A DNA stretch of 64,000 bases from Facklamia hominis CCUG 36813 (GCF_000301035.1 NZ_JH932292.1:1813103-1877102); one strand, 5' to 3'; positions 1,824 to 12,117 are shown, numbered from the stretch's first letter. Program-made: numbers and translations. Notes: generated by a model not told the origin, from the sequence alone.

Positions 1824-1845
1824 TTAATTGAAGGAGAGGATAGTA

Positions 1846-3057
1846 TTGAATTCGTTGATTCATGCCGATAATATATGGTTTTTGTGGGCAATTATTGCAG
1901 GTTGTGCCACGATCGCGATTATTTTGGAGCAAAAATATGACTGGGCTAGCAAGGTGACTGGAGCCATCATCGCCTTATTAATGATGTTAGTACTATCGAA
2001 TGTGGGGGTGATTCCAGCTAGCTCACCGGTCTATGATGCGGTATGGGATTATATTGTCCCCTTGGCCTTACCCATGTTATTATTCACCGCTGACCTGAAG
2101 TCTATTAAACAAGGAGCGGGGCGCTTAATGTTGATTTTCCTCTTGTCAAGTCTGGGGACGATTGTAGGTGGCTTGTTGGCTTATTTTATGCTTCGAGATC
2201 TGATCCCACAATTAAACGATATTGTGCCCATGTTTATTGGAACTTATATTGGGGGTGGGGTGAACTTTGTGGCTTTATCAACGGCCTATAAAGTTCCGGC
2301 TGCCACTACCTCAGCTGCCATGGTGGCGGATAATCTCTTGATGGCTCTATATTTCTTTGTACTTATTACCTTACCAGGATTGAATTGGATTCAGCATCAT
2401 TATGCTCATCCACATATCGATAAGATCCGGGATATGACCGCCCAAGACCAGTCAGCGAAGGAGACTATGGCCGCTAAATATTGGAGCCCCAAGGATATTT
2501 CCCTGAAGGATATTGCCTTAACAGTCAGTTTGTCCTTAGTGATTGTGGCACTATCTTCGACTTTAGCTAACTATATTGGGCGATGTTTTATCGGTCAAGA
2601 TTTTTGGTCAGTAGTGCTTAAGAGTTTCTTTGGGAATAAGTACCTATTAATAACGACCTTTACTATCTTATTAGCTTCTCTTTGTCCCAAGTGGATGCAG
2701 TCCATTCATGGTAGTCAAGAATTAGGAACCTTTTTAATCTACCTCTTTTTTGCGGTGATTGGAGCTCCTGCATCGGTATCTTTGATTCTCTCGGAGTCGC
2801 CACTATTGCTCTTATTTGCAGCGATCATGGTCTTTACCAATCTTTTATGGACGTTGCTTTGTGGTAAGCTGTTTAAGTTCAGTATTGAAGAGATTATGCT
2901 TTCTTCCAATGCTAATATTGGTGGACCGACCACAGCGGCAGCCATGGCCGTTTCTAAGGGCTGGGGAGATCTAATTGTACCTGCTCTTTTGGTTGGGACA
3001 CTTGGTTATGTGGTAGGTAATTATTTAGGGGTTTTGATTGGGATTCTATTGCATTAG
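1846..3057 (+). CDS. DUF819 family membrane protein
   Basis: This 403-residue, highly hydrophobic protein matches the DUF819 (YjcL-like) family of multi-span membrane proteins. Recognisable stretches are the ALPMLLFTADLKSI segment, the GTYIGGGVNFVAL loop and the C-terminal ANIGGPTTAAAMA loop; paired GG-rich loops like these recall re-entrant regions of transporters. Its substrate is unknown. An upstream TTG (1828) overlaps the AAGGAGAGG ribosome site, so the TTG at 1846, six bases after it, is taken as the start. It is a single-gene unit with its own terminator. A solute carrier role is inferred from topology only. Confidence 0.85.
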   Translation: MNSLIHADNIWFLWAIIAGCATIAIILEQKYDWASKVTGAIIALLMMLVLSNVGVIPASSPVYDAVWDYIVPLALPMLLFTADLKSIKQGAGRLMLIFLLSSLGTIVGGLLAYFMLRDLIPQLNDIVPMFIGTYIGGGVNFVALSTAYKVPAATTSAAMVADNLLMALYFFVLITLPGLNWIQHHYAHPHIDKIRDMTAQDQSAKETMAAKYWSPKDISLKDIALTVSLSLVIVALSSTLANYIGRCFIGQDFWSVVLKSFFGNKYLLITTFTILLASLCPKWMQSIHGSQELGTFLIYLFFAVIGAPASVSLILSESPLLLLFAAIMVFTNLLWTLLCGKLFKFSIEEIMLSSNANIGGPTTAAAMAVSKGWGDLIVPALLVGTLGYVVGNYLGVLIGILLH

Positions 3058-3059
3058 GT

Positions 3060-3100
3060 ATCAAAAAAATTGGCGATTGCTTAGCAATCGTTTTTTTGAT
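3060..3100 (+). terminator. Terminator after DUF819 gene
   Basis: CGATTGC (3074-3080) pairs with GCAATCG (3084-3090) and is followed by seven T residues. The A run on the other flank extends the pairing and may make it work in both directions. Confidence 0.9.
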
Positions 3101-3137: not shown

Positions 3138-3201
3138 TTTTTTAGGAGTATACTTGGGATATAGCTTATTGGTAGGAATGAAAGAGTTATAGGAGGTTAT
3201 T

Positions 3202-6200
3202 ATGAATATTAAGACAATGGGGCGTTGGCTATTGGCCACCCTATTATTAGCAGGATCCAGTGGAGCGAGTTCGCTTGATCCCGGACAGGCTGTAACAGAA
3301 ATCACACCCCCTCATGGGATCTCAAGGGTTTATGCAGCTGAGACGACATCTGAATTATCTTCTTGGGGAGATTTAGTCAAGCGAGTTAGTGAGAGTACTG
3401 AAGGTTCAGAATTAACATTAACTGTTGGATCACAAGGCATCGATGGCTCACAAGCCAGTAATAAATTGGTGGTTCGAAAGGGTCAAACTCTTCACTTAGT
3501 GGGATCAGGAATTTTAAAAGGAAAAGGTCTTGATTCGATTGTAGTAGAAGAAGGAGGGACTTTGACGATTGATGGACCTACTGTCAGCAATGCACAAGTT
3601 CAAGTTAAAGGACAATTGAACATTGTTAATGGTGGGATTAAGGATACTAAGTTACCGGGATCGATTATTTCTGTGGAGGGCGGAAACTTGCATTTATCTG
3701 GAGGAGAGATCTCTGGAAATGAAGCGCAGGCTTTAGCCGATAGTGATAATACCGAATATTCGGTAGTGACCATCAAAAAAGGGTCCATGGTGATGGATGG
3801 TGGGAAAGTCAGTCAGAATAAGAGTCTGCAATTTGGTGGAGCGATTAGCTCTTGGGATAAGGATTCAATAATTACCATCAATGATGGCGAGATTAGTAAT
3901 AATCAAGCCCTTCATCCCACAAGGTATGCCTATGGTGGTGCCGTTTACACTAGAGGTGGAACCATTTCGATGAACAAAGGGATCGTCAAGGCTAACTCGG
4001 CTGAACGTGGCGGAGCAGTGGCGATTGATAACGGAGTATTCCAAATGAAAGATGGAAGCTTTGAGGATAATACGAATGGTGAATATAGTGGCCAAGGTGG
4101 TGCACTCTACGCTTTAAGTCGGTCTAAACTAACCATCGATGGTGGTCAATTTAATCATAATAAGGCCAATGGAGCAGGTGGTGCTCTCTTTATTGCAGAT
4201 AGTTATACTAAGATCAATGGCGGTAGCTATACCAATAATGAATCATCAAAATCTGGTGGAGCTCTAGCGCTAATTAAGAGTAAAGATGCTGCAGAAGACG
4301 TTGGAATTACGGAAATTCATGCCGGAGAATTTAAGGGCAATGAAGCAACGGGATTCTGGGGCGGTGGAGCAATCTATAATGATACTTTTTCGACGCTAAG
4401 AATGTATAATACCTTAATTAAGGATAACCGAGTTGAAAAACCTTTCTTAATTGGAATCGGCGTTGGTGGTAAATCAAAACCAGCGAGTATGCAAGGTGGG
4501 GGTGTTTGGAATTGCCCAACGGGACAGACAATCACCCACATTGATAAAGGAGTTGCCATCTATGATAATGAGGCTGGTAATGCTAACCAAGGCAAATACT
4601 TAGGGGCTGGAGATGACTTTGTTAATATTCAAAAAGATATTAAAAATCCCAGTCTTGAGATTACTTCTAGACTCTTAGGTGGCGGTCATCGTTTATGGTA
4701 TAAGGATGGTTCGATCCAAGGTATCCATGTGAATTATGAAGTTGGTCAACAAGATCCTCGATTTGATCCGGATAATCCTGGAGAACCGCTTGAATATAAT
4801 AAGGCCATGGGAGGATTTCTTGGTTATAAGTCAGTACCATCAGAAGACTCGAAGTTTCTAGCAGAGAGATTGGCTAAAGTATTTATTATGGGTAATAAGG
4901 CGAGTCATCTAGGAATTTCAGGTGGCGGAATTACCAATAATGGAAAGTTAATCTTCGGTCAAGAAGGAAACTTCCAATTGAAATTGGCTAAAAAGTGGGT
5001 AGATCAAGATGGCAACCCTCTCGATCCAAATCAACTTCCTGAAGGAGTCACGATCCCTGAGCAAATTACGATTAAAGTGTTAATTAATGGTCGACATACG
5101 GATACTGTTGTTCTTAAGAAATCAGAAGGTTGGACGGCCACAATTGATGATTTTCCAAATCCAGAATATTTGGAAAACTCTGAAATTTCATTTGTTGAAG
5201 ACGAGGTTCCTGGATTTAAATTAGAAGTGCGTGAGGCGAATCTAACAGAAGCTAGTTTAGAATATGAACTAGTGAATAAGATCAAGTCCGCGGATTATAC
5301 GCCGGTAGTGTCTAAGGTGTTGACTGGTAGAGAATTGAAGGATAACGAGTTTATTTTCCAATTATTACAGGAAGGTCAAGTCATTGACACAGTCACTAAT
5401 ACGGCTTCAGGTCAGGTATCCTTTAAGACGCTTAAGTTTACGAAACCTGGGACTTACAGCTATCAGATTAAAGAAGTAAAGCCCGAAGAATCGACAGAGC
5501 TGGGCTTGACCTATGACGAACGTATTTATACTTTAACGGTGGAAGTAACGGATAATTTTGATTTGCAAGCTAGTTACATGGTGGATAATGAAGCAGCTGA
5601 CCAGGCTACTTTTGAGAATAAATTTGAGCAAGTGAAGGCTAATTTTGTTCCTCAAGCCATGAAGACCTTAAGTGGTCGCGAGTTAAAAGAGAGCGAGTTT
5701 ACTTTCCAATTATTGGAAGATGACAAAGTTATTGATACCGCAACAAATACGGCGGCTGGTCAAGTGACCTTCAAGGAATTAGAATATACCCAACCAGGAA
5801 CTTATCACTATACAATTCGTGAGCGTTCAGGTAGGGAAATAGGTATGTCTTATGATCAATCGGTTTATCAATTGACAGTGACGGTCGATGATAAGATGGA
5901 ACTAACCGCTATTTATTCTAAAGAAGGACAAACAGTAGAAGAACCTAATTTTGTCAATACGGTAGGAGACTCACCTAAAGGCTTAGTAACCTTATATAAG
6001 GTAGATGCGGACACCAATGCAGCCTTAAAAGGGGCTCAGTTTAAGTTGGTTCAAGATAAAGCAGCGATCCCATTCTATTTAGATGATCCTACTGGACAGG
6101 TTCAATCAGTTTCGGGTATTCAAGTGATCGGATCCGAAAGTCAAACAGTGGATCCTATTTTAAATGATGGTCAGATTGCTTTTGATGAATCCATGCGGAC

Positions 6201-7476
6201 TAAAGTGTATTTAGGAGCGGGTTCGTATCAGTTGGATCTTACGAATGCCAAGGTAGAATCGACTATTGAAGAATCAAAAGATTTTGAATTAATCGCTCAT
6301 TATCTTAAAGATGAAGCAGGAAATGTTTCGGGTATTATGATTGAAGTTAAAATGACTGATTCAAAAGAAACGAGTGAAGAAACAACAAGTTCAAGCACAG
6401 GTTCAACTACTACAACGACCACCTCGGCCGAAGTGGATTCAGAGACTAATGCAGCACTTGTTCAGCTTGAACAAGAAATCAAAGAATTAGAAGCTCAAAT
6501 GGAAGCGGCAAAACAGGTTCAACCAATTATTGAACAACGACTGATATCGACAACGAGTCAAGAACCAACGGGAGAAATGGAAGTTAATGCAGGTGATCAA
6601 GCAACCTCTCCAGCCTATGAAGAGATTATTGTTAATCAGGCTGAGTTGGATCAAAGTCAGGCTCGAGTGAAGGAATTAGAAGCACAAATCTCTGAGTTGA
6701 AAGTTCAATTAGCCCAACTTCAAGTCGCTTCAACCACAAGTACAACGAGCGTCACTACGGTAACATCCAGTACAACAAGCGTGACGTCTGTAGAAGAAGA
6801 ATCGATGACTGAGACTTCAATGGAACAGAGCAACTTATCTAGTTCCTTTACCGTGACTTTAATGGAACCTGTTATTCGTACAACAGGTGATCAAGGTGAA
6901 ATTATTTTTGATCGTTTACCTCTAGGAATCTATCATTTTGAAGAAATTCAAGCTCCTTCAGGTTATCAAATGAATGATCAACCAATTCCTCCATTTGAGA
7001 TTATGCTAGCAGCAAATCAAAGTGTAGGAGTTAAGTATAAACCAGTCGATCCAATTACTGTTAAAAATGTAAAGGTTCCAGAAGAAACAACCACAGAAAC
7101 AACAGTTACGACGGAGTCAACTTCGACAACCGAGTCAACTTCGACAACCGAGTCAACGACGACAAGTGAGTCAACTTCGACAACCGAGTCAACAACGACA
7201 AGTGAATCGACTTCGACGACGGAGTCAACCTCGACGACCGAATCAACAACGACAAGTGAATCGACCACTAGTACAGAAGAAAGGACGACAACACCCACGA
7301 CGCTTGAATCGACTCAATCAACGCCGACACCGCCTAAACCGGGTCAGCCTAAACAAGGGTTACCTGGAACTGGGGAAGATGTTTCACGAACTTTATCAGC
7401 GATTGCTGGTATGATCTTCTTGGTAGGTCTTGTCTTATTGATTCGTTCCAAGGATTCATCCGATGAAAAAGATTAA
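3202..7476 (+). CDS. Large LPXTG adhesin: beta-helix, isopeptide and split SpaA domains
   Basis: This is a 1424-residue surface protein. Rough domain order: signal peptide (1-48); right-handed beta-helix region with repeated GGA/GGG turns (about 60-585); Cna_B-like domain starting KKWVDQDG (590-695); two Spy0128-type pilin isopeptide domains (about 700-806 and 815-919) with likely bond pairs K705/N806 and K821/N919; first half of a SpaA-like domain (about 927-960, K933); Thr/Ser linker, two coiled-coil stretches (about 1084-1113 and 1146-1177) and another Thr/Ser linker; second half of the SpaA domain (about 1212-1282, E1248 in EEIQAPSGY); Thr/Ser/Glu repeats (1295-1372); LPGTG at 1387-1391, membrane segment and charged tail. 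It probably binds a host or partner surface via the beta-helix head. It has no linked sortase and no pilin-motif gene cluster, so single adhesin is favoured over pilus subunit. The start is supported by AGGAGG. Confidence 0.9.
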   Translation: MNIKTMGRWLLATLLLAGSSGASSLDPGQAVTEITPPHGISRVYAAETTSELSSWGDLVKRVSESTEGSELTLTVGSQGIDGSQASNKLVVRKGQTLHLVGSGILKGKGLDSIVVEEGGTLTIDGPTVSNAQVQVKGQLNIVNGGIKDTKLPGSIISVEGGNLHLSGGEISGNEAQALADSDNTEYSVVTIKKGSMVMDGGKVSQNKSLQFGGAISSWDKDSIITINDGEISNNQALHPTRYAYGGAVYTRGGTISMNKGIVKANSAERGGAVAIDNGVFQMKDGSFEDNTNGEYSGQGGALYALSRSKLTIDGGQFNHNKANGAGGALFIADSYTKINGGSYTNNESSKSGGALALIKSKDAAEDVGITEIHAGEFKGNEATGFWGGGAIYNDTFSTLRMYNTLIKDNRVEKPFLIGIGVGGKSKPASMQGGGVWNCPTGQTITHIDKGVAIYDNEAGNANQGKYLGAGDDFVNIQKDIKNPSLEITSRLLGGGHRLWYKDGSIQGIHVNYEVGQQDPRFDPDNPGEPLEYNKAMGGFLGYKSVPSEDSKFLAERLAKVFIMGNKASHLGISGGGITNNGKLIFGQEGNFQLKLAKKWVDQDGNPLDPNQLPEGVTIPEQITIKVLINGRHTDTVVLKKSEGWTATIDDFPNPEYLENSEISFVEDEVPGFKLEVREANLTEASLEYELVNKIKSADYTPVVSKVLTGRELKDNEFIFQLLQEGQVIDTVTNTASGQVSFKTLKFTKPGTYSYQIKEVKPEESTELGLTYDERIYTLTVEVTDNFDLQASYMVDNEAADQATFENKFEQVKANFVPQAMKTLSGRELKESEFTFQLLEDDKVIDTATNTAAGQVTFKELEYTQPGTYHYTIRERSGREIGMSYDQSVYQLTVTVDDKMELTAIYSKEGQTVEEPNFVNTVGDSPKGLVTLYKVDADTNAALKGAQFKLVQDKAAIPFYLDDPTGQVQSVSGIQVIGSESQTVDPILNDGQIAFDESMRTKVYLGAGSYQLDLTNAKVESTIEESKDFELIAHYLKDEAGNVSGIMIEVKMTDSKETSEETTSSSTGSTTTTTTSAEVDSETNAALVQLEQEIKELEAQMEAAKQVQPIIEQRLISTTSQEPTGEMEVNAGDQATSPAYEEIIVNQAELDQSQARVKELEAQISELKVQLAQLQVASTTSTTSVTTVTSSTTSVTSVEEESMTETSMEQSNLSSSFTVTLMEPVIRTTGDQGEIIFDRLPLGIYHFEEIQAPSGYQMNDQPIPPFEIMLAANQSVGVKYKPVDPITVKNVKVPEETTTETTVTTESTSTTESTSTTESTTTSESTSTTESTTTSESTSTTESTSTTESTTTSESTTSTEERTTTPTTLESTQSTPTPPKPGQPKQGLPGTGEDVSRTLSAIAGMIFLVGLVLLIRSKDSSDEKD
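7111..7272 (+). repeat. Thr/Ser/Glu-coding tandem repeat in adhesin
   Basis: Degenerate 18-bp units (GAGTCAACTTCGACAACC type) encode TESTST/TESTTTSES repeats just before the LPGTG motif. They form an extended, probably glycosylated wall-spanning stalk. The near-identical DNA units make copy-number change by slippage likely. Confidence 0.85.
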
Positions 7477-9672: not shown

Positions 9673-9763
9673 AAACAAGCAACTAGATGATTAGACTTTT
9701 TTCTAGCACCTGGGATTAATTTCCAGTAAAATAAAGATAGCTTAAAACATGAGGAGGAATTGT

Positions 9764-10309
9764 ATGATAGCATTATTTGTTGTTTTAGGAATTATTGTAT
9801 TGATCGCTTTGTGGGGTGTGGGTGTTTATAATGGCTTTATCAAGCAACATGAGATGGTCGATAATGCCATGGCTCAAATTGCAGCCCAAGTTGAATCGCG
9901 TTGGGATGCCTTATCCAACTTGATGCAAGCCACTAAAAATTACCAAAGTCACGAAGCAGAAACGCTAACTCAAATTGTAAAGGCAAGATCAGGAATTGAT
10001 CGTCATTCCTCAGTACAAGATGTAGTCAAGGATGATTATGCATTCCAAAAGGCTTTACGGTCGATTGATGTCGTCGTTGAACAATACCCTGATTTGAAGG
10101 CGTCTCAAGTCTATCAAACGACCATGGATTCGGTAAATCAATATGAGAATAATGTTCGACAATCACGGATGATCTTCAATGATACGGTCACTCGTTTTAA
10201 TCGGATGATTAAGGTCTTTCCTCAATCTATTATTGCGGGGATGACGGGCTTCCAAGCAGAAGAATATTTCAAGGCAAGCCCAGAAAAAACGGAGATGCCT
10301 CAATGGTAG
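9764..10309 (+). CDS. LemA family membrane protein
   Basis: This 181-residue protein has one N-terminal membrane helix (about residues 1-23) and then the LemA pattern YNGFIKQHEMVDNAMAQI, with long helices rich in Gln and a PQSIIAGM-type motif near the C-terminus. LemA proteins form helical bundles facing out of the membrane; their molecular role is not settled. An upstream ATG at 9749 overlaps the GAGGAGG ribosome site (9751-9757), so the ATG at 9764 is the start. Its last seven bases overlap the DUF2207 gene, a common pairing that suggests a joint function. Confidence 0.9.
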   Translation: MIALFVVLGIIVLIALWGVGVYNGFIKQHEMVDNAMAQIAAQVESRWDALSNLMQATKNYQSHEAETLTQIVKARSGIDRHSSVQDVVKDDYAFQKALRSIDVVVEQYPDLKASQVYQTTMDSVNQYENNVRQSRMIFNDTVTRFNRMIKVFPQSIIAGMTGFQAEEYFKASPEKTEMPQW

Positions 10310-12117
10310 GCCGGCCCAGACCTTCGTTGTCAGTTCGTTCTAAGTTAGTTTGGCCACTGGTGTTACTGACGTGTTTTTGTCTGTGGGCGGTTCAGACTGC
10401 TTATGCTGCTGATTTGGATATTAAACGGATTGAAGTTCAAGTCGAACTCCAAGCGGACGGGTCGGCTGACATTCAAGAGACTTGGCAAGTTCGAACGGAG
10501 GGCTATACAGAGCTGTATAAGGCCATTGAATTAGCTTCCAATCAGTCTGTAGAAGATTTTCAGGTGAGTCTCAATGGACGGACTTTTGACTCCCTCGGTA
10601 ACGATTGGGATCTGGATGCTTCCTTTGAAGAGAAAGCTTTTAAGAGCGGTCAAAATGGGCAAGAGCTCAACTGGGGGATTAGCCAGGAAGGCAATCAGAC
10701 TTATCAGTTAAGCTACCGCATTAAGAATTTTGTGATGCAGACTCAGACGGATCAGATGATCTACTGGCAGTTTGTAAGTCCAGATCTAGCAGATTCTCCG
10801 GAGAATTTTTCGGTGACGATTTCCAGTGCCGATCACCCCTTGAGTTTGGAGACTAACCGAATCTGGGCCTTTGGCTATTCGGGTCGGGTTGACTTTAAAG
10901 AAGGCAGAGTTGAAGCTAGGAATGATCAGCCCTTGCAGCAAGGCGATGCTTGCATCTTACTGGTGAGAATCCCTAGTGAGACTTATGCCACTCAACAAGC
11001 TCTAGATGAGACTTTTGATGATTATGTTCAACAGGCTTTCCAAGGGTCGGATTACAATTATCAGGACTATGATCCGAATGCAACTTATGATGACATTAAA
11101 AGTATGCAGGCCTCAGAGGAAGATTCCTCAGCTTCTTGGATGATTGGCGGAGTGGTCTTGTTGGCAGGGGTCACGGCTATTTATACGATTATTAATACTA
11201 TTAATAATCGTCGTGCCCTGAGGAAGTACTATCCAGATCTAGAGACGCGCTCAAGAGAACTTGAAGGACAATATGAACGTCAAGCTCCGGGAGAAGATGT
11301 CTTTATGGGTTATGAATTATTGGATAATCTTTCAGTTGCTGACTTGGAGGAGAATTACGCAACAGCCTGTATTTTAACCTTAGTGAAGGCTGGAGCTTTA
11401 AGCCTGGAAGAAGTCGAAGAGGGCTTGTTTAATAAGAAGCAATTGGCCTTTGTCTTGGATCCCAATCAGACGAATTTTACCGCGAAGCCTTTAATAGCGT
11501 TCTGGAATTTATTAATATCTGCCAGTGATGATCAAGGCCGTCTCAGACAGAAAGACTTAAAGAATTACATCCGCAAAAATTACCAAGACTATGAATCTTT
11601 CTTAAAGTTATGCCAGACGGATTCAAAAGCCAGGCTTCAAGTTGATGGCTATCTCGAGGGACTGCGCTTAAAGGCAGATAAGTCAGCTGATTTCCAACGA
11701 GCCAGTCAACAAGTGGGCTATCAACTCACTGAGTCTGGTTTTGAGATGCGGGATCAATGGGTGAAATTCTACAACTATCTGAAGGACTTCTCCTTGATTA
11801 ATGAACGACATGCTTTAGATGTCGGATTATGGGATCAGCTTTTAATCTATGCCAGCGCTTTAGGAATTGCTGACCAAGTGGAGCAGGAATTTGTTAAGTT
11901 GAACCCTGATTATATGAAGGAATCAACCTATAGTTATAACGGGCGTCAATTTACTTATGCAGACTATTATTTAATGAGTCGTTTAATGAACAATTCTTAC
12001 CATCAAGCAACCAGTAGCCATACCATTACTCAGTCCATGTCATCAGGGGGCGGTGGATTTTCCAGTATGGGCGGTGGTGGTGGTTCTTTTGGAGGCGGTG
12101 GCGGAGGTGCCAGATAG
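10303..12117 (+). CDS. DUF2207 family membrane protein
   Basis: This is a 604-residue protein: signal peptide (about 1-35), an extracytoplasmic DUF2207 domain (about 36-235) with the opening D-I-K-R-I-E-V-Q-V and the ADIQETW motif, a membrane helix near 278-297, a long cytoplasmic region (about 300-575) and a Gly-rich tail with long GGGGG runs. DUF2207 proteins are often encoded next to LemA and are thought to act in envelope maintenance, without a defined activity. Translation is coupled to lemA through the ATGGTAG overlap at 10303-10309. No convincing terminator follows. Confidence 0.88.
   Translation: MVGRPRPSLSVRSKLVWPLVLLTCFCLWAVQTAYAADLDIKRIEVQVELQADGSADIQETWQVRTEGYTELYKAIELASNQSVEDFQVSLNGRTFDSLGNDWDLDASFEEKAFKSGQNGQELNWGISQEGNQTYQLSYRIKNFVMQTQTDQMIYWQFVSPDLADSPENFSVTISSADHPLSLETNRIWAFGYSGRVDFKEGRVEARNDQPLQQGDACILLVRIPSETYATQQALDETFDDYVQQAFQGSDYNYQDYDPNATYDDIKSMQASEEDSSASWMIGGVVLLAGVTAIYTIINTINNRRALRKYYPDLETRSRELEGQYERQAPGEDVFMGYELLDNLSVADLEENYATACILTLVKAGALSLEEVEEGLFNKKQLAFVLDPNQTNFTAKPLIAFWNLLISASDDQGRLRQKDLKNYIRKNYQDYESFLKLCQTDSKARLQVDGYLEGLRLKADKSADFQRASQQVGYQLTESGFEMRDQWVKFYNYLKDFSLINERHALDVGLWDQLLIYASALGIADQVEQEFVKLNPDYMKESTYSYNGRQFTYADYYLMSRLMNNSYHQATSSHTITQSMSSGGGGFSSMGGGGGSFGGGGGGAR

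Follow-up and report, generated by a model that had tools for sequence, protein, structure and literature searches.

The window analysed here is a stretch of 64,000 nucleotides from Facklamia hominis CCUG 36813 (GCF_000301035.1, NZ_JH932292.1:1813103-1877102), and our subject is a fibrillar adhesin encoded in it, together with the SpaA/CnaB domain that this adhesin carries in two pieces. By Pfam profile match and sequence, two FctA domains are followed by the split SpaA domain, this by a stalk of Ser/Thr/Glu repeats and the stalk by the LPGTG motif (Table 1). It is a sortase-anchored surface protein, the LPXTG motif, the hydrophobic stretch, the charged tail and a genomic sortase all being present, with an anchor match to PF00746 at amino acids (aa) 1384-1418 that stays under the cut-off (14.9 vs 20 bits). 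The genome, which is 1.9 Mb in size and belongs to the same GTDB genus as G002 (Aerococcaceae; G, L and C numbers are our labels for genomes, loci and contigs), yielded one sortase gene (2.3e-24). The adhesin does not qualify as a sortase-assembled pilin: this lone sortase lies far from the window, and the neighbours of the adhesin include no pilin or sortase genes.

The SpaA profile PF17802 matches the adhesin in two pieces, positions 3-27 at about aa 927-961 and positions 37-76 at aa 1227-1267, which are separated by about 264 residues, the profile positions skipped being just the B-C loop; the protein scores 66.7 bits (cut-off 23.1), in separate stretches that include these two. The insert, of about 265-275 residues, lies between strands B and C and between Lys933 and Glu1248, and is built in the order of a small beta-rich part, a Thr/Ser linker, a helix, a short tip, a second helix and a second linker. 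The initial annotation of this DNA had described two SpaA halves separated by a long insert; the profile matches the halves separately, every string that it quoted is found in the open reading frame, and its anatomy was correct except that the helix limits it gave (about 1084-1113 and about 1146-1177) were slightly short of those now predicted. The insert is a foreign domain within a sandwich, as in CnaB domains of the Cpa and RrgA kind. Most likely, then, a single CnaB domain of the adhesin is split and a helical hairpin projects from it, the topology being read from the sequences of relatives and the fold and helices from a structure model.

Table 1. Features of the adhesin gene, with positions counted from the first letter of the window
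Feature	Position	Strand	Basis or remark
Sortase-anchored fibrillar adhesin, 1424 aa	3202..7476	+	intact open reading frame; AGGAGG ribosome site 3191-3196
Second FctA domain, aa 818-921, adjoining the split domain; a further FctA stretch precedes	5653..5964	+	two PF12892 stretches, E 1.5e-34
N-terminal half of the SpaA/CnaB domain, aa 927-950, comprising strands A and B and including Lys933	5980..6051	+	PF17802 profile 3-27; block pLDDT 87-94
Lys933, predicted isopeptide lysine	5998..6000	+	invariant in four aligned modules; aligns with the KVD lysine of SpaA domains
Optional beta-rich part, aa 951-1052	6052..6357	+	eight strands, from model residues 31-46 to 127-137
Thr/Ser/Glu linker 1, aa 1053-1074	6358..6423	+	sequence; pLDDT <50 over most
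Predicted coiled-coil arm 1, aa 1075-1118	6424..6555	+	model helix 160-203; heptads
Predicted hairpin tip loop, aa 1119-1143, length varying among relatives	6556..6630	+	model; comparison of relatives
Predicted coiled-coil arm 2, aa 1144-1182	6631..6747	+	model helix 229-267; heptads
Thr/Ser linker 2, aa 1183-1213	6748..6840	+	pLDDT <50, model residues 266-293
C-terminal half of the SpaA/CnaB domain, aa 1214-1290, including Glu1248 and the candidate acceptor region	6841..7071	+	PF17802 profile 37-76; pLDDT 85-95 at model residues 301-350, <=67 beyond
Glu1248, predicted catalytic Glu, E-box FEEIQAPSGY	6943..6945	+	invariant in four aligned modules
Asn1289, candidate acceptor, ITVKNVK context	7066..7068	+	eight residues past the usual position
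Ser/Thr/Glu repeat stalk, aa 1295-1375	7084..7326	+	tandem arrays with units of 18 bp and 54 bp at 7108-7265
LPGTG sorting motif, aa 1387-1391, with a hydrophobic segment and a charged tail after it	7360..7374	+	sequence; weak LPXTG-anchor profile match

The same split at the same site was found in 6 of the 76 Aerococcaceae genomes searched, representing three genera: the window's own, F. lactis (L008/L037), G003 (L041), G001 (L046), G011 (L099) and G049 (L101). The split domain is thus present in the window genome and three other genomes of its genus, plus two further genera, the G002 module being the one found in F. lactis. The break always falls at about positions 26-40 of PF17802, and its recurrence in six genomes is more than chance would give. 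The search for the same insert elsewhere, which had been proposed in the initial annotation, recovered a SpaA domain split by a coiled-coil insert near the LPXTG motif in five relatives, the tips of which differ. The regions N-terminal to the module are unrelated among these proteins (FctA with a beta-helix-like region, DUF7507, or FctA with Cna_B). In five of the six, the module is directly followed by the Ser/Thr stalk and LPXTG; in L046 two Cna_B-like repeats stand between. The L046 insert is also longer, contains three or more helical stretches and is perhaps an extended hairpin interrupted by an LPEP break; this module (L046/L123, G001:C1) forms part of a 7109-aa open frame in which SpaA matches are numerous.

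Profile search of G004, the fifth genome of the genus, detected no split SpaA, and the one partial match that was read (L121) is an ordinary pilin-like protein. Profile searches of the order (395 genomes) and the phylum (398), which unrelated coiled-coil inserts would escape and in which a partial overlap in G254 was left unread, gave no spanning match outside Aerococcaceae. Single matches in G180 and L112 turned out to be ordinary SpaA. Among viral contigs, the protein search found no relatives of the module and the DNA motif search only ordinary SpaA domains, which were used to deepen the alignment for modelling.

An AlphaFold2 model of aa 916-1294, a prediction that the initial annotation had suggested for this region, was built from an 11-row alignment comprising the adhesin, the F. 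lactis module and nine ordinary SpaA domains (mean predicted local distance difference test, pLDDT, 71.5; predicted template modelling score, pTM, 0.54). The SpaA halves are modelled at pLDDT 85-95, the coiled coils are predicted as helices (block means mostly 77-90, lower at the ends) and the linkers stay below 50. Compared in VIA-align 2, the model matches the Bacillus anthracis TIE protein (6fwv_B, 257-346) over 90 residues at 1.1 Å (Z 15.3) and CnaB2 of Lactobacillus plantarum (8bdw_H) over 93 of 97 residues at 1.9 Å (Z 14.7, 39% identity); both proteins have the fold of the rejoined halves and are continuous, without an insert. Both alignments reach from model residue 9/10 to 368/370, and at most about 72 of the aligned residues come from the C-terminal half, so the N-terminal half would complete the same CnaB fold, which is support rather than proof. 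That the rejoined halves form a transthyretin-like (CnaB) beta sandwich is supported by this model, and the profile matches and the same split in five relatives point the same way, as the initial annotation had expected of the two halves.

It could be argued that there is no split at all, the N-terminal half and the beta-rich part forming one complete beta domain and the C-terminal half another, since strand B continues into the beta-rich part in the model as a single strand (residues 31-46) and that part has strands enough for a domain of its own. The C-terminal half alone, however, lacks profile positions 1-30, the 97-residue CnaB crystal structure aligns over nearly its whole length by using both ends of the module, and L041, L046 and L101 are without the beta-rich part yet have both SpaA halves. 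We therefore consider two separate domains very improbable and retain the single split domain. Of the two outcomes that the initial annotation had named as refuting its reading, two complete domains or disordered coiled-coil stretches, neither agrees with these profile matches and this model.

The initial annotation had also suggested that the two coiled coils pack as an antiparallel hairpin, and both the model and the relatives support this. Scored with a Lupas-type residue table, whose values are approximate, both stretches reach P > 0.99, and the insert maximum is 2.01, against 1.61 for the highest of 200 shuffled sequences; arm 2 is the stronger coiled coil, matched by 0 of 500 shuffles vs 3.6% for arm 1. 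Among known structures, 8to0_BM has a two-helix segment to which the model helices align (95 residues, 1.5 Å, Z 10.7), a Z that is common among helical matches. In L041, the coiled coils, of about 30 residues each, are separated by only about 10 residues, which by geometry is too short to link parallel helices of this length and points to an antiparallel hairpin. Between L041 and L101 (59% identical), 35 gap columns fall in the tip and 15 in the linkers, with 0 in the arms or the SpaA halves, the pattern expected of a hairpin with a free tip and tethers. The longer tips of L101, L037 and L099 have an acidic-xG-x-I pattern in common (AEDGTII, NELGEVI, DEAGNQI), which is present neither in L041 nor in the window adhesin and may form a small beta element at the end of the hairpin.

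The main rival to a closed, ligand-binding hairpin is that the coiled coils are oligomerisation elements, the arms of neighbouring adhesins pairing and so clustering the molecules on the cell. The two arms are amphipathic and resemble each other in their LxxqIxxL heptads, the flexible tethers would permit swapping and may allow domain-swapped dimers, and the module is situated near the wall, where neighbouring adhesins meet. Nevertheless, L041 has a very short tip, and the arms are free of indels while the tip contains so large a one; both findings agree best with a hairpin formed within one molecule, and we regard pairing between molecules as rather unlikely.

The remainder of the insert bears on a further alternative, in which it would be a spacer or decoy, a poorly structured and probably glycosylated Thr-rich loop with incidental helices that merely shields the wall-proximal region. 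Its linkers are indeed of low complexity and predicted to be disordered, and the module diverges fast (32% identity between species). Such a loop would not account for arms that are predicted to be helical with good confidence and whose length, unlike that of the linkers and tip, is kept among relatives, nor for a beta-rich part that is conserved wherever it is present, and we find it improbable. The beta-rich part occurs in three genomes only, the adhesin's own, F. lactis and G011 (E ~1e-36). Pfam and PDB searches with it gave only weak, inconsistent and non-significant matches, and when modelled alone it failed to fold (pLDDT 41.5). A GAGxYxL pattern seen by eye led us to consider a nested SpaA domain, which the profile comparison with SpaA did not bear out; the part may be a very divergent CnaB.

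In CnaB domains, the isopeptide bond joins a Lys in the first strand to an Asn or Asp in the last strand, with a Glu as the catalyst (PMC12617251). The five relatives (L037, L041, L046, L099 and L101) have the full set of Lys, Glu and Asn. In the window adhesin, the usual acceptor spacing, 33 residues after the Glu as for the Asn of F. lactis, falls on Pro1281, and the acceptor candidates near it are N1289 and D1283. On this comparison of sequences, an isopeptide bond is likely for the module family, with an ambiguous acceptor in the window adhesin. The sandwich had been proposed to be locked through K933 and E1248, which was not borne out as stated: the pair consists of the Lys and the catalytic Glu, and E1248 was rejected as a cross-link partner on account of its catalytic role in CnaB domains (PMC12617251). 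Nor was a full Lys-Glu-Asn triad upheld for the window adhesin: its Asn can be matched only across a gap of 8 residues, and a profile made from the other sequences does not extend that far.

Inserts are tolerated by CnaA as well as by CnaB folds, and the ones depicted are CnaB, vWA and thioester domains (PMC12617251). The Spy0125/Cpa pilus adhesin of Streptococcus pyogenes (2XID, 4BUG) likewise houses a large domain between the isopeptide residues of its PF17802 SpaA/CnaB domain: the latter spans 291-384 and 588-598, with Lys297, Glu347 and Asp595, and Glu347 precedes the insert (PMC12617251). Our model aligns to Cpa over 85-88 residues across about 310 chain residues (Z 11.2-11.6). In Cpa, however, the insert is a thioester domain placed after the catalytic Glu, whereas in the window adhesin it lies before the Glu and is a predicted coiled-coil hairpin tethered by flexible linkers. 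RrgA of Streptococcus pneumoniae and the GBS104-type tip pilins also have an isopeptide beta sandwich with an inserted functional domain, but there the insert is vWA, the host is CnaA-like (PMC12617251) and the proteins are pilus tips, while the insert considered here is helical by prediction and the genome has a single detected sortase gene. The initial annotation had known of no described adhesin with this architecture; CnaB domains with large inserts are known already, and it is the kind of insert and its site that are new. We found no coiled coil inside a CnaB/SpaA domain in the literature searched, subscription literature and AlphaFold DB being outside the scope, and the novelty lies in the predicted helical coiled-coil insert before the Glu.

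Some other observations concern the remainder of the adhesin and its surroundings. Residues 1-600 (3202-5001) are rich in repeats of the GGA(I/V/L) type, match the Chlamydia PMP repeat and G8 weakly and are probably a beta-helix adhesive part. The DNA tandem repeats of the stalk (Table 1) encode units of the ESTSTT type, and slippage in them could alter stalk length among strains. A terminator-like stem-loop with T runs on both strands (3072-3092) lies between the adhesin and an upstream permease-like gene (1828-3057); further upstream, 510-1628 encodes a secreted transglutaminase-like protein, assigned by reading and not by family search. At 9749-12117, a LemA-like gene is followed by one for a membrane protein with a Gly/Ser-rich C-terminal tail (DUF2207-like, assigned by reading only).

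In the mechanism that we propose, the last folded domain, just outside the wall-spanning stalk, would be a single SpaA/CnaB domain serving as a clasp. A side arm would extend from its strand B-C loop, consisting in this subtype of the beta-rich part and then of the antiparallel coiled-coil hairpin with flexible Thr/Ser linkers at both ends. As the insert lies between the Lys strand (the first) and the acceptor strand (the last), which are neighbours in the CnaB sheet, a pull on the protein would be carried by the clasp, with no load on the hairpin; that stapled first and last strands let tension bypass the insert in this way is a tentative proposal, in which doubt somewhat prevails. The hairpin and its variable tip would engage a ligand or adjacent molecules laterally, close to the wall, and such a function, to which exposure, tip variability and position point, is possible and not far from an even chance. 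Taken as a whole, a covalent clasp with a force-shielded hairpin, where an isopeptide staple bypasses a side arm of roughly 350 residues that stays folded for lateral binding or clustering under pull, is conceivable, with the balance tilted towards doubt.

Several points weigh against this interpretation. The acceptor is ambiguous in the window adhesin, with Pro1281 at the usual spacing and N1289 eight residues on, in a stretch modelled with low confidence. The alignment behind the model is shallow and contains the insert in only two rows, and the ordinary SpaA rows, being laid across both halves, favour their joining. The overall pTM is such that the model does not place the arm relative to the domain, and the coiled-coil score of arm 1 is only modest against shuffled sequences.

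To the CnaB, vWA and thioester domains known so far as inserts of CnaB folds, the module adds a predicted helical hairpin at another loop, reused in front of the wall stalk behind unrelated N-terminal regions. If the isopeptide bond forms, it would represent a natural design for keeping a side arm outside the load path, and the strand B-C loop of CnaB scaffolds may then, provided that the side arm does lie outside that path, be suggested as a display site for helical modules.

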